This document shows, one piece after another, positions 6,690-39,006 of a stretch of 64,000 bases of DNA (position 1 is the stretch's first letter; every line of letters starts with the position of its first letter). Source of the DNA: Anaerolineae bacterium (GTDB lineage: Bacteria; Chloroflexota; Anaerolineae; JAFGEY01); assembly GCA_016783145.1 (NCBI GenBank), contig JADHXD010000003.1, forward strand, positions 1 through 64,000. Direction: 5' to 3'. The notes beneath the pieces are model-generated. The model was given only the letters and a program-made list of their open reading frames with translations, was not told the DNA's origin and did not search any database. Position numbers and translations under genes: made by a program.

Positions 6690-6851
6690 CTCTGGCTGGC
6701 GTATCTCCATGGGCCGAGCAGCGGCATGAGGATGCCGCTGCTACCAGATTCCCGTAGGTTTGTCGAGGATCTCTGGCTGGGGCATCTCTATGGGCCGAGC
6801 AGCGGCATGAGGATGCCGCTGCTACCGCGTTCCCGTAGGTTTGTCGAGGGG
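6690..6851. repeat. Two tandem 81-bp repeats, each with an 11-bp hairpin
   Basis: Units 6690-6770 and 6771-6851 differ at only a few bases. Each holds a perfect stem AGCAGCGGCAT / ATGCCGCTGCT with loop GAGG (6717-6742 and 6798-6823). The array fills the gap between the transporter and nadD. There is no T-run, so the hairpins do not look like intrinsic terminators. Confidence 0.85.
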
Positions 6852-33823: not shown

Positions 33824-36223
33824 TCACGATTCGCCATCGTAGCGCGGCAGCGCAACCCCGAGCATACTGCCTTCCCCTGGTGCGCTCTCTAGCCAGACAC
33901 GACCCCCGTGTCGTTCGACGATGCTCTTGACGATCGCCAGCCCGAGCCCCGTCCCCTGGACGCTCTCTGCGAGTTCATTGCGGCCTCGGAAAAAGCGATC
34001 AAAGACGTAGGGTTGGTCTTCCGGAGCGATGCCGATCCCGGTATCCCTGACCCGGAGGACGGCTTCCTGCCCCTCAAGAGCCACACACACGGCAACCCGC
34101 CCCCCCGCTGCGGTGTACTTTATCGCGTTGCTGAGCAGGTTATCGATGACCTGCCAAAGCCGCCCGAGGTTTCCAAGGACCAGGAGGTTCTCCTGCGGCA
34201 CGTCCACGTCGAGAACGAGTCCCCGTTCCTCAACCTGGTCGCGCCAGGTATCCGCTGAACGGGTCACGACGCCCCCCAGATCGCAGGGGGTCATCTCCAG
34301 CTCGATGTCTGCTTCCAGGCCTGCCAGATCCAGCAAGCCACTGGTCAGGTCCAGCAGTCGTGTGAGCTCCTGCCGGGCATTTGCCGCAAAATCCTGCTGC
34401 TGCTCGTTGAGCGGCCCGACCTGCTCGATCGCGTCCAAGAGGCTGTAGACCGTGCTCAGCGGGGACCGTAGATCGTGCGAAACTGCGGCCACAAACTCGG
34501 ACTTCATCTCGGACAGTTCCTTGATGCTCGTGACATCCTGCATCACCGTGACCAGACCGATTCCCGGAATCGGCGTCACCGAGACACTGAACGCGCGATC
34601 CCGATCCACGACGATCTCGCCGTAACCGATCTGCCCGCTGCTCTGGGCCTGATCGAGCAGCGTGGATAGGCTGGGATGGCCGATGAGCTCAGCGAGAAGC
34701 ATGCCAGTGCCCCTGGTTCGACCGGTGCCAAAGACTCGATGCGCCGCAGCATTCATCAGCACCACCCTGTCGTCTACGTCCGTGACGATCACCGGCTGCT
34801 CGATGCCGCGAATCACAGCCTCCAGCTTGGTCTGCTCCGCCTTAACCTGGTGGAACAGCCGGGCATTCTCGATCGCAGCCGCTGCATGCACCGCAAGCGC
34901 GGTCCACATCGCCCGGTGGGTTTCAGTGAACTTTGTCTCTGAGTCACGGTGGTCCCCATAGATCGCGCCTATCGGGCCAGAGGCACCCGTGATCGGCACA
35001 CAGATCGCTGCTCGTGGCTCGAAACCCGTTCCGTCCTCGATGCGTGTGCGCTCGACGATGGTCAGGATGGGCTCTCCCTCTTCGACCACGCGCTGGACAA
35101 TGCGGCGCGCAAACCGGAATTCGGGAGCATCCAGCGTCTCCGGGGCAAGCCCGCGGATCACCCGGTGAGCCGTCTCCTGCCTCCCCTCTCCGAGCAGCAC
35201 CAGGAATCCTCGCTCCGCGCCCACGATGTGAATAGCCACTTCCACGACCCTATCCAGGATCAGATCCAGGCGCAGCGTCGAGGAAAAGGTCGCGCCGATC
35301 TGCGAGATCGTCGTGCGCTCTATCTCGTTTTCGATCTCGGCGTGCAGGCCGATGTTCTCCAGCGCGATCGTTCCATAGCTAGCCAGGATCGCAAGCTTGT
35401 CGAGGTCGTCCTGCGAAAAAGGATGCGCATGCGCCAGTCGGGCGACGCGCAGCACACCAATGGGCCGCTCGCTGCTGCAGAGGGGCATATACGCCAACGC
35501 AGAGGCGGTGCCACCCTTCGTCGCGGCTCCCGAGGCAGGAAGGACCTGCGGAGAGCCACTCTCCAGGGCAAGCTGCACCATCGGATCCTGAACCGCCCGG
35601 TTGAGGGCACGAGCATGCTGCTGCCCCGCACTCAACCGGGAACGGATGTAGACCATCCCCACGTCGGGGTCCTGGAGGAATATGCCGCCGTCGTCCGCGT
35701 TCGTGACAAAGACCGCCGCCTCGACCAAACGATTCAGGACCTGTTGGCGATCGGGCTCGGAGATCATCGTCTGCCCGATAGCATAGAACGTCTTTTGCTC
35801 CAGAACCTGCCGCTGAAGCCGCTGCCCCAGGCGATCTCGCTCTCTGCGCAGCCGGGGTTCCTCCAAGGCCTGCTCTACCGCCGCCAACACCTCCTCTTCG
35901 ACAAGCGGCTCGCATACGCACGCCCTGACCCCGAGATGAAGGGCTCGCAAGACCGCTTCTGCCCTGTCCTGCGGTGCATAGATCAGCACAGGGAGGATGT
36001 GTCCGCGTTCCCGCAGCGATTCGAGGACCTGGATGTCAGAGAAACCGCAGCACCCCAGGCCCAGGATGAGCAGGTCGGGGTGAGCGTCACGGGCTCTCTG
36101 AACCGCACCCTCGGCCCTCTCCTCCTCCAGCGTTCGGTAGCCACGGGGCACCAGCACGCGGTCAACGATAAACCTGCGCGGCGCACACCGATCATCCACG
36201 ACCAAGACCAGTTCGTCCGCCAA
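33824..36223 (-). CDS. Sensor histidine kinase with pseudo-receiver, GAF and PAS domains
   Basis: 799 residues from TTG 36223 (MADELVLVVDD), with GAGGAGG just upstream. The N-terminal receiver-like domain has the acidic pair VVDDR, but the phospho-acceptor region reads DLLILGLGCCG, with Gly where Asp is expected, so it is probably a pseudo-receiver. Two GAF-like domains (about 135-290 and 300-455), a PAS (about 465-575), HisKA with FVAAVSHDLRSPLS, and HATPase with NLLSNAIKYT, DTGIGI and GTGLGLAIV follow. No membrane helix is present, so it is cytosolic. Its own promoter lies at 36350-36378, and no response regulator is adjacent. Confidence 0.88.
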   Translation of the reverse strand: MADELVLVVDDRCAPRRFIVDRVLVPRGYRTLEEERAEGAVQRARDAHPDLLILGLGCCGFSDIQVLESLRERGHILPVLIYAPQDRAEAVLRALHLGVRACVCEPLVEEEVLAAVEQALEEPRLRRERDRLGQRLQRQVLEQKTFYAIGQTMISEPDRQQVLNRLVEAAVFVTNADDGGIFLQDPDVGMVYIRSRLSAGQQHARALNRAVQDPMVQLALESGSPQVLPASGAATKGGTASALAYMPLCSSERPIGVLRVARLAHAHPFSQDDLDKLAILASYGTIALENIGLHAEIENEIERTTISQIGATFSSTLRLDLILDRVVEVAIHIVGAERGFLVLLGEGRQETAHRVIRGLAPETLDAPEFRFARRIVQRVVEEGEPILTIVERTRIEDGTGFEPRAAICVPITGASGPIGAIYGDHRDSETKFTETHRAMWTALAVHAAAAIENARLFHQVKAEQTKLEAVIRGIEQPVIVTDVDDRVVLMNAAAHRVFGTGRTRGTGMLLAELIGHPSLSTLLDQAQSSGQIGYGEIVVDRDRAFSVSVTPIPGIGLVTVMQDVTSIKELSEMKSEFVAAVSHDLRSPLSTVYSLLDAIEQVGPLNEQQQDFAANARQELTRLLDLTSGLLDLAGLEADIELEMTPCDLGGVVTRSADTWRDQVEERGLVLDVDVPQENLLVLGNLGRLWQVIDNLLSNAIKYTAAGGRVAVCVALEGQEAVLRVRDTGIGIAPEDQPYVFDRFFRGRNELAESVQGTGLGLAIVKSIVERHGGRVWLESAPGEGSMLGVALPRYDGES

Positions 36224-36349: not shown

Positions 36350-36378
36350 ATACTATCACATCCCTTCGAGAGCGTCAA
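36350..36378 (-). promoter_or_regulatory. Promoter for the pseudo-receiver kinase gene
   Basis: TTGACG (36378-36373), 17-bp spacer, TAGTAT (36355-36350) on the minus strand. The MITE-like element begins 8 nt upstream of the -35 box. Confidence 0.75.
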
Positions 36379-36385
36379 CTACACA

Positions 36386-36528
36386 TAATGCAGACATACG
36401 GCTGTTGCAAAGTCCGAGGAGGGCGCATCCCCCGATGCGCCCGGCTTACTGGCGCACCGTCCCGCATCGGGGGATGCGGCACTCCCCAGTCAAGTCAAGC
36501 GACAATGCAACAGCCGTAATGCAGACAT
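36386..36528. mobile_element. MITE-like palindromic element with flanking direct repeats
   Basis: Outer inverted repeats TACGGCTGTTGCA (36397-36409) and TGCAACAGCCGTA (36506-36518) are perfect. Direct repeats TAATGCAGACAT flank them (36386-36397 and 36517-36528), sharing the outermost bases. Inside, GCATCCCCCGATGC and its reverse complement GCATCGGGGGATGC form a second inverted pair. The core is about 120 bp and carries no ORF. Inverted ends plus a target-duplication-like repeat fit a non-autonomous transposable element. Confidence 0.7.
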
Positions 36529-36633
36529 CCTGAAGCGCCTTTGTCCAGGCGGCAAGTCCCTTGGAAGGTCTTTTGCAGGCCACCGTAGGGCACGATTCCA
36601 TTCGTGCCGGCTGCGACCGAGCAAGCCCTCTGC

Positions 36634-36778
36634 GAGGATCTACGCCCGCCGGTGTCGCACAGGCCCCCTTCGAGGATCTACGCGCGCCGGTGTCGCACAG
36701 GCCCCCTTCGAGGATCTACGCGCGCCGGTGTCGCACAGGCCCCCTTCGAGGATCTACGCGCGCCGGTGTCGCACAGGC
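36634..36778. repeat. Tandem 38-bp repeat, 3.8 copies
   Basis: Units start at 36634, 36672, 36710 and 36748 with the core GAGGATCTACGCGCGCCGGT. Unit 1 has one base changed (CCCGCC for CGCGCC), and unit 4 is cut at 31 bp. The unit is not a multiple of three and no gene is read through it. There are no spacers, so it is not CRISPR. Confidence 0.9.
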
Positions 36779-37130: not shown

Positions 37131-38285
37131 ATGAGCGTTCAGTTCGAGTGGCAAGCCGGCAACGAAGACGGGCGATGGGAGGTGATCGCCAAGACGGGGC
37201 CGCGTCCCAAGCGAAAATGGTTCAGGTGGGTATTGGGAGCGGTGCTGGTCTTGATCGTCGTCACAGGCGTAGGAGGGTATCTCCTTGCCCGCCGCCGCTA
37301 TGCCCAGGCTGTTGGCCAAGCCACGTTTCAGGTCCAGAGCGTGATCGATCTGGAAGCGCGCGCGTTTCAAGAGGGGAACAAGATCCTCTACCTAGAGCAG
37401 CAGGACAGCGCATCGCCCGATTGGTATGCCCGGCAGCAGCGGCGCGTCAGCGAGGACTGCGAGCGATCTCGCAGCGGAGACAGCCTGGGCTCGATCGACG
37501 ATGGCTGCTTCCCGGTGCTGCCTGCCAAGATCCAGCACATTGACCTACGAGATGACGTGGCCTGGGCGGAGGTGATCGAAGGCCAGTCGCCTGTGCGGCG
37601 AGTGCGGTTCTATCGTCGCACAGACCTGGGATGGAAGCACACCGCCCCTCGCGACGAGTTTTGGAACGTCGCCATCGAGCTGCACTATGGCGATTTGCTG
37701 GCTCGATATCATCGACGAGACGCTCCCGACATCGATCTTTTGATCGAGCACATCTATCAAGTATACGACGATGTGTGTACCCAGATCGAGTGCCCAGCGG
37801 ACAACCGCACCCTGACCGTGAACTTTGTCACTCAGGTACCCGGCCTCGAGGGAACAGGTGAACTGCCTCGCCTGGACGGGAGCCAGTTGTTCCTACCCTC
37901 TCCTTGGCTATCCGGCCTTCCGGTCGGCGAGACGTGGGATGCGTCCTATCTCCAGGAACTAACGCACTGGGCAGCGTATGCGGCAGCCGCCAAAGCCATC
38001 CGCACAGACCCCGATCAGAAGCTGAGCGTGCTCCAGCAGGTGATCCTGGACGAGTATACGGTCTGGTACAGCGAGCGAGAGGAGGCCGACGCGGCCCTCC
38101 TCAAGCGGATCGTCCAACTCCACGGCGCAGACGCGCTGCCAGAGGTATTCCGCTGGATCAGAGATACGCAGGGCACTCAAAACCTGCGCACGTTCACGAA
38201 CCGTTGGCTTTCTCCGCCGTCGATCGGCGCAGAGAAGGCCCCGCACGCAGTTTCAGCGCCCCTGGGCACGCACCCGCTCTCCTAG
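37131..38285 (+). CDS. Membrane-anchored protein of unknown function
   Basis: 384 residues from ATG 37131, with AGAGGATT upstream. A basic cytosolic start (GPRPKRKWFRW) precedes one membrane helix (VLGAVLVLIVVTGVGGYLLA, residues 34-53), and the remaining ~330 residues lie outside. The outer part has a Cys pair (DDGCFPVL and DCERS) and another pair (CTQIECPAD). A helix with LQELTHWAAYAAA weakly recalls a gluzincin peptidase site, but the HExxH motif is missing. I do not recognise the family. The chimeric ABC ORF begins 14 nt downstream. Confidence 0.7.
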   Translation: MSVQFEWQAGNEDGRWEVIAKTGPRPKRKWFRWVLGAVLVLIVVTGVGGYLLARRRYAQAVGQATFQVQSVIDLEARAFQEGNKILYLEQQDSASPDWYARQQRRVSEDCERSRSGDSLGSIDDGCFPVLPAKIQHIDLRDDVAWAEVIEGQSPVRRVRFYRRTDLGWKHTAPRDEFWNVAIELHYGDLLARYHRRDAPDIDLLIEHIYQVYDDVCTQIECPADNRTLTVNFVTQVPGLEGTGELPRLDGSQLFLPSPWLSGLPVGETWDASYLQELTHWAAYAAAAKAIRTDPDQKLSVLQQVILDEYTVWYSEREEADAALLKRIVQLHGADALPEVFRWIRDTQGTQNLRTFTNRWLSPPSIGAEKAPHAVSAPLGTHPLS

Positions 38286-38298
38286 CGCAAGCTACCCC

Positions 38299-39006
38299 GT
38301 GGAGTACCCGCCTACGGATCTATCCAGGAGGTCCGCCACGATCGTATACGACATCCAGCACTTGACCAAGGCGTATGCCGGGCAGACACGCCCGGCCAAC
38401 AAGGACATCACCCTGCAGATCGATCAGGGTGAGATCTTTGGGCTGCTGGGGGAGAACGGAGCGGGCAAGACAACGCTGGTCCGACAGATGGTCAATCTGC
38501 TGCGCAGCACCTCGGGCAGCATTGTCCTGTTCGGAAAGCCGATCGACCAGGATGCCCTCCACGTCCCGCTGAATGTCGGATACATGCCCCAGGAAACGCA
38601 CGCCCTGAACGTGCTCACGGTGGGCGAGGCCCTCTTTTTCACCGCACACTTCCATCTGAACCCAATCTTCTTCCTGGTCATGCCTCTATGTGCCGTCTCC
38701 CTGTCGGGCATCGGCGCGCTGATCGGCGTGCGCGCGCGCACTCCGCAAGAGGCCGATGCGCTGAACCTGTTCCTCACGTTGGTCATGGCCGGCCTTGGGC
38801 CAGTGGTGATCCCTCCCGATCGCCTGCCGCGCATCCTGCTGGTGCTGGGGCGCTTCAGCCCGGCGACCTATGCCGCATCCGCCTTCCGGCAGGCACTGCT
38901 CGGCCCCCTTACCGGACAGATCCTCGTGGACCTTGGCGTCTTGACGGCGATGTCGGCCGCCGTGTTTTGGCTGGTAGGGCGCAAGATGGACTGGCGGCAA
39001 CACTGA
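38299..39006 (+). pseudogene. Chimeric ABC ATPase/ABC-2 permease remnant
   Basis: A 235-residue ORF joins the first ~110 residues of an ABC ATPase (Walker A LLGENGAGKTT, Q-loop YMPQE) to the last ~115 residues of an ABC-2 permease (LNPIFFLVMPLCAVSLSG through LVGRKMDWRQH). The ABC signature LSGGQ, Walker B and the first permease helices are all missing. The junction is near 38650 (FTAHFHLNPIFF). The simplest reading is an in-frame deletion of over a kilobase between neighbouring ATPase and permease genes. The start is also weak: CAGGAGGT at 38326 has no ATG, GTG or TTG at the proper distance, and the track uses GTG 38299. It cannot be a working transporter. Confidence 0.72.

Follow-up and report, generated by a model that had tools for sequence, protein, structure and literature searches.

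Insertion of a short transposable element in an Anaerolineae genome is promoter-anchored, oriented and base-exact. The element was found next to the promoter of a sensor histidine kinase gene, in the 64-kb stretch of DNA that was analyzed (hereafter, the window). Its arrangement very probably reflects promoter-targeted transposition of an ISAs1-type MITE, that is, of a non-autonomous derivative of an ISAs1-family insertion sequence (IS).

The window carries one copy of a multi-copy MITE

The initial annotation, made from the letters of the window, had described a MITE-like element with perfect terminal repeats, an internal inverted pair and no ORF of its own, and all three features were recovered at the positions given in Table 1. 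The 13-bp terminal repeats of the 122-bp element are a perfect inverse match, the inner inverted pair is perfect over 16 bp, and the ORF list contains no ORF confined to the element. The strand of the element was predicted to fold with −70 kcal/mol (z = −6.7 versus shuffled sequence). A search for an RNA-family identity returned only a sub-threshold match to the mir-642 hairpin (28.7 versus 90 bits), and this identity was rejected. The flanking direct repeats were also present, as TAATGCAGACAT at 36386-36397 and 36517-36528, but the 12 bp at first taken for the target duplication had to be reduced to 9 bp, because at both joints the flank bases happen to equal the terminal bases of the element by chance. 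The features of the element are far beyond chance, which confirms that it is real.

Table 1. Positions of the MITE, its target duplication and the neighboring kinase promoter and gene in the window
Feature	Position	Strand	Basis
MITE with ISAs1-like ends, promoter-proximal left end, 122 bp	36397..36518	+	multi-copy, terminal repeats, duplication
Left terminal inverted repeat TACGGCTGTTGCA, 13 bp	36397..36409	+	
Right terminal inverted repeat TACGGCTGTTGCA, 13 bp	36506..36518	-	
Inner perfect inverted repeat, left arm CGCATCCCCCGATGCG	36424..36439	+	
Inner perfect inverted repeat, right arm	36463..36478	+	
Target duplication ATGCAGACA, promoter-side copy (promoter −45 to −53)	36388..36396	.	
Target duplication ATGCAGACA, far copy	36519..36527	.	
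Gap of 9 bp between −35 box and target duplication, length kept across copies	36379..36387	.	
Predicted kinase promoter, −35 box TTGACG	36373..36378	-	
Predicted kinase promoter, −10 box TAGTAT, TG before, spacer 17	36350..36355	-	
Sensor histidine kinase (response-regulator-like, GAF, PAS, HisKA, HATPase_c), read from the targeted promoter	33824..36223	-	

The source genome assembly (4.98 Mb in 233 contigs, about 92% complete) contains ∼46 other places that match the element, mostly with 90%–100% identity, so that the absence of further copies, which would have spoken against the annotation, was not observed. Seven fetched copies, including the one in the window, were identical over 122 bp. 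When the genome was searched with the terminal repeat, 126 ends were found, versus two with a reversed-pattern control, which corresponds to ∼63 elements if sister subfamilies with other cores are included. Among 52 copies cut out with both ends, the duplication was 9 bp long in 34 and 10 bp in 12, so that a duplication of 9–10 bp was present on 46 of the 52; its occurrence on nearly every copy shows that the element has transposed. With its many genomic copies, its duplications, its ISAs1-like ends and no ORF of its own, the element is a MITE, as first proposed. No copy was found among 100 relatives examined, a set with no close relative in it.

Several other repeats were seen along with these copies. 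In one contig (L065:3124-3397, G000 C194) an ISAs1-type MITE has turned into a tandem array of ∼100-bp units at the contig end, beside a −10-like motif. Elsewhere (L066:2050-2192, G000 C3) a 143-bp sister element lies between two divergent promoters, and on its far side a TTGTCA-TATAAT-like promoter points away from it. Two copies of another repeat (L068:2201-2400 and L069:2552-2751, G000 C58 and C63), which start with TACGGCTGCCGCAAAG / CACGGCTGCCGCAAAG, have an internal TTGAC as well as long inverted arms (ACTTCCGATTTCT ... AGAAATCGGAAGT), and possibly represent a further MITE family. In the window itself, a 38-bp unit (GCCCCCTTCGAGGATCTACGCGCGCCGGTGTCGCACAG) occurs four times in tandem at 36625-36778, in the stretch that separates the MITE from the gene at 37131, with the copies 97% alike, and an 81-bp unit occurs twice in tandem at 6690-6849, with the copies 92% alike. 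By eye, the translation of the ORF at 38299-39006 (+) resembles a truncated ABC transporter ATPase that continues, in the same frame, into the final portion of an ABC-2-type permease, as though two adjacent genes had been merged by an internal deletion.

The insertion point lies at a fixed offset from sigma70/A-type promoters

When the flanks at the left end of the copies were aligned, one strong signal was seen reading outward from the element, which consisted of a TTGAC box, a 17-bp spacer and a TATAAT box, often with TGn before it. A −10 box with at most two mismatches was present in 41 of 48 left flanks (background 4.2%) and a −35 box with at most one mismatch in 31 of 48 (background 5.4%). 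Both boxes occurred together in 31/48 left flanks versus a background of 0.33%, and in 1/46 right flanks read in the same way. The left end points to the promoter wherever a promoter is recognized, while ∼7 of the 48 copies had no clear promoter. Where the −35 box was weak, the −10 box was good, and often extended, in 8 of 11 targets. The promoters used in these counts were inferred from sequence.

The distances within this arrangement hardly vary. The −35 pentamer is separated from the duplicated bases by 9 bp in 26/29 flanks and the −10 box by 32 bp in 31/37, and the promoter spacer is 17 bp in 26/30. In the coordinates of a promoter whose spacer is 17 bp, the near joint falls at −44/−45 and the duplicated bases extend from −45 to −53 or −54, the additional base of a 10-bp duplication being on the far side. 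Such insertion at a fixed distance from promoters is what characterizes a promoter-targeted transposon. The fixed points of the flank profile were the −10 and −35 boxes, and base preference was almost absent from the upstream region and from the 9 duplicated bp. When a motif matrix was moved along the flanks, 29 and 10 matches were obtained at shifts 0 and +1, versus a mean of 0.1 at displaced positions; as the matrix was trained on flanks from the source genome, this test is in-sample for its own MITEs, and the IS and G741 sets described below are independent. An ORF of at least 100 aa begins at most 350 bp away on the promoter side in 40 of 47 cases, but the opposite side often has an ORF too, and all that follows from this count is an intergenic location of the sites.

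The kinase gene follows the same rule. Its predicted promoter, TTGACG-17-TAGTAT on the minus strand (36378-36350) with TG preceding the −10 box, was also recovered by an independent promoter scan, and the distance from the end of its −35 box to the target duplication is exactly 9 bp, as in the rest of the family. The closeness of the element to this −35 box had been noticed before and read as a possible influence on the expression of one gene; it reflects a target rule of the whole family. The insertion shifted the DNA upstream of −53 by ∼131 bp and left the core promoter whole.

At six sites two elements are separated by one copy of the same 9–10 bp. The members of the pairs on contigs C95, C153 and C192 are only 76%–88% alike, and each has a closer match among the other copies, which indicates that two different elements chose the same base. 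Such repeated use would be expected with a position dictated by the promoter, provided that the promoter stays intact after the first insertion.

The MITE resembles ISAs1 elements, and some full-length elements share the offset

A pattern scan of genome contigs for the element end returned many Chloroflexota records and one complete IS of Nocardiopsis metallicus. This 1288-bp IS carries CAGGGCTGTTGCAAAGTC at each of its ends and has a duplication of 9 bp, and its 367-aa protein is an ISAs1 transposase (NF033564, 2.8e-57; Pfam PF13808 and PF01609). In an uncultured Oscillochloris (G743), an ISAs1 transposase gene lies between the ends CAGGGCTGTTGCAAAGTC and CAGGGCGGTTGCAACGTC, 1315 bp apart, so this IS has ends of the MITE type; the same genome holds MITEs of this kind together with the transposase. 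It gave 332 matches to the ISAs1-type end versus one in the control; perhaps 160 elements are present in its 4.7 Mb, which is an unusually heavy load for MITEs. Chloroflexi bacterium Dive96_bin1.126 (G741) has an ISAs1 match (C387:5398-5883) identical to that of G050, which is listed in the same class as the window, and a Chloroflexota bacterium is accordingly the most likely source of the window. The MITE has ISAs1-like ends and duplications of 9 or 10 bp, within the 8–10 bp of this family, and, judged from their sequence, its ends are of the ISAs1 type.

PF01609 transposases were located in the source genome, but no NF033564 match was obtained in the assembly, which is about 92% complete, and since it is without an ISAs1 transposase, the autonomous partner is lost, unassembled or in another strain. 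A beta-lactamase-like ORF adjoining a copy on contig C18 was rejected as a transposase.

The offset was then compared in 44 full-length ISAs1 elements with reliable ends, from the same class and phylum as the window, which provided 83 flanks. The promoter matrix matched 16 of these flanks at p<0.01, in 15 of the 44 elements, versus 0.8 expected from random positions of the same loci. In the stricter, displacement-controlled version the profile peaked at 0 and +1 (8 and 8 matches versus a mean of 0.6), the peaks at negative shifts falling inside the IS and reflecting the shared ends. In full-length elements the promoter may stand at either end, and only about one-third of them show the offset. 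A 194-bp MITE of G741 had the promoter at the same offset in 8 of 10 copies with a duplication; the offset was also seen in 3/10 cases in G743 and in 2/6 in G742. A transposase-bearing ISAs1 fragment of G743 (L373) shows the exact arrangement ATTGTA-18-GTCAA-9-[9 bp]-CAGGG. In a small sample from outside Chloroflexota, a promoter was at the offset in 1/23 end flanks and in 0/8 flanks of plasmid-borne IS, and the single full copy of an ISKpn9-like ISAs1 element of E. coli, located on a plasmid, was without the promoter signature. These data demonstrate the targeting trait for Chloroflexota only.

RNA polymerase as the probable guide of insertion

To explain these observations, we propose that an ISAs1 transposase supplied in trans would move the MITE. 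With less certainty, the ruler could be the promoter-bound RNA polymerase holoenzyme, whose sigma region 4 or alpha C-terminal domains, at −35 to −55, may present or bend the upstream DNA. The alpha C-terminal domains of RNA polymerase hold DNA upstream of bacterial promoters. As far as the target sequences can tell, polymerase bound at the promoter is the probable guide, because the signals that are obeyed (TTGAC, spacer of 17, TGn and TATAAT) are those read by sigma and extend up to 38 bp from the cut, and because the insertion point falls where the alpha C-terminal domains hold the upstream DNA.

The main rival to this explanation, which we regard as unlikely but deserving serious weight, is that a DNA-binding domain of the transposase reads TTGAC and an AT-rich −10-like block directly, without RNA polymerase. 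It is consistent with the fixed distance to the −35 box and with the presence of GTCAAGTCAAG near the right end of the element, where TTGAC lies ∼20 bp inside the tip and roughly mirrors the 18-bp distance from TTGAC to the joint in the target; the ends of other Chloroflexota MITEs carry TTGAC in a comparable position. However, the mirrored place in the element holds nothing −10-like, while in the targets conservation includes the −10 box and TGn as well, reaching as far as 38 bp from the cut. The combination of a weak −35 box with a good, often extended, −10 box (8/11) is also what polymerase tolerates.

It is rather improbable that DNA shape or another promoter-associated protein, such as curved or melted upstream DNA or a nucleoid protein, marks the site instead of polymerase. 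Other transposases do favor bent DNA, but here hardly any base preference is seen in the upstream region or in the 9 duplicated bp, and it is the −10 and −35 boxes that are fixed. A loose insertion without targeting, from which selection retained only the copies upstream of promoters, is very improbable. Most sites do lie between genes, and insertion sequences in general show a real intergenic survival bias; yet selection could not easily fix one base position (26/29 and 31/37 exact) or one orientation (31/48 left versus 1/46 right flanks), and the same base was used repeatedly by different elements. The idea that the promoter is an outward-directed part of a longer element, as its constant neighborhood at a fixed distance might suggest, is refuted because the target duplication separates promoter from element and recurs on the far side without a promoter, and the flanks of different copies are otherwise unrelated.

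If RNA polymerase is indeed the guide, a more general proposal is that Chloroflexota ISAs1 transposases dock on the promoter-bound holoenzyme and direct insertion to −45 to −53 of sigmaA promoters, as a bacterial counterpart to Ty3-type targeting that is general to a clade of ISAs1 elements and their MITEs; we offer this tentatively, as a reasonable possibility and not as the expected outcome. Because genes and core promoters stay intact and only the DNA upstream of −53 is displaced, one-base insertion at housekeeping-type promoters would amount to a bacterial safe-haven strategy, which allows spreading without breaking genes. It would also offer an opportunity to test whether the transcription machinery can guide a DDE transposase. 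In uncultured bacteria the insertions mark promoters naturally, and at dozens of genes they systematically displace regulatory DNA located upstream (UP elements, activator sites).

Comparison with known systems

The prevailing view of bacterial insertion sequences is that they insert loosely, at target motifs that are short or weak, and that selection keeps them out of genes. MITEs and ISAs1 elements are already known, and the one-base targeting of sigma70-type promoters is undescribed in the literature found; a search that covered few subscription papers returned no description of a promoter-targeted ISAs1 element or a sigma70-targeted bacterial transposon. It has been observed that IS often lie within 100 bp of genes, and base-exact targeting is not reported in the accessible part of the same paper (PMC9208149).

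The element of the window is similar to bacterial MITEs, such as MITEAba12, in being short and multi-copy, with terminal inverted repeats, a target duplication and no gene of its own, while it differs from them in its fixed position and orientation relative to promoters. Its ends, CAGGGCTGTTGCAAAGTC or close to it, and its 8–10 bp duplication are shared with the ISAs1 family (NF033564; PF13808 and PF01609), a likeness seen in complete IS of Nocardiopsis and Chloroflexota; in contrast to these, the MITE is without a transposase gene, and base-exact promoter targeting is undescribed for the family in the literature found.

Tn7 and its relatives likewise keep a fixed distance and orientation from a recognized site. 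Tn7, however, depends on dedicated target-selection proteins and a single gene-specific site, whereas the elements described here occupy many main-class promoters and their full-length IS relatives have one transposase gene. The Ty3, Ty1 and Tf1 elements of yeasts integrate immediately upstream of genes and at a defined distance from the transcription start, and in this way spare the genes. Although they are eukaryotic retrotransposons directed by promoter factors of Pol III or Pol II, and no descent is claimed, the MITE works alike, at a fixed distance upstream of genes.
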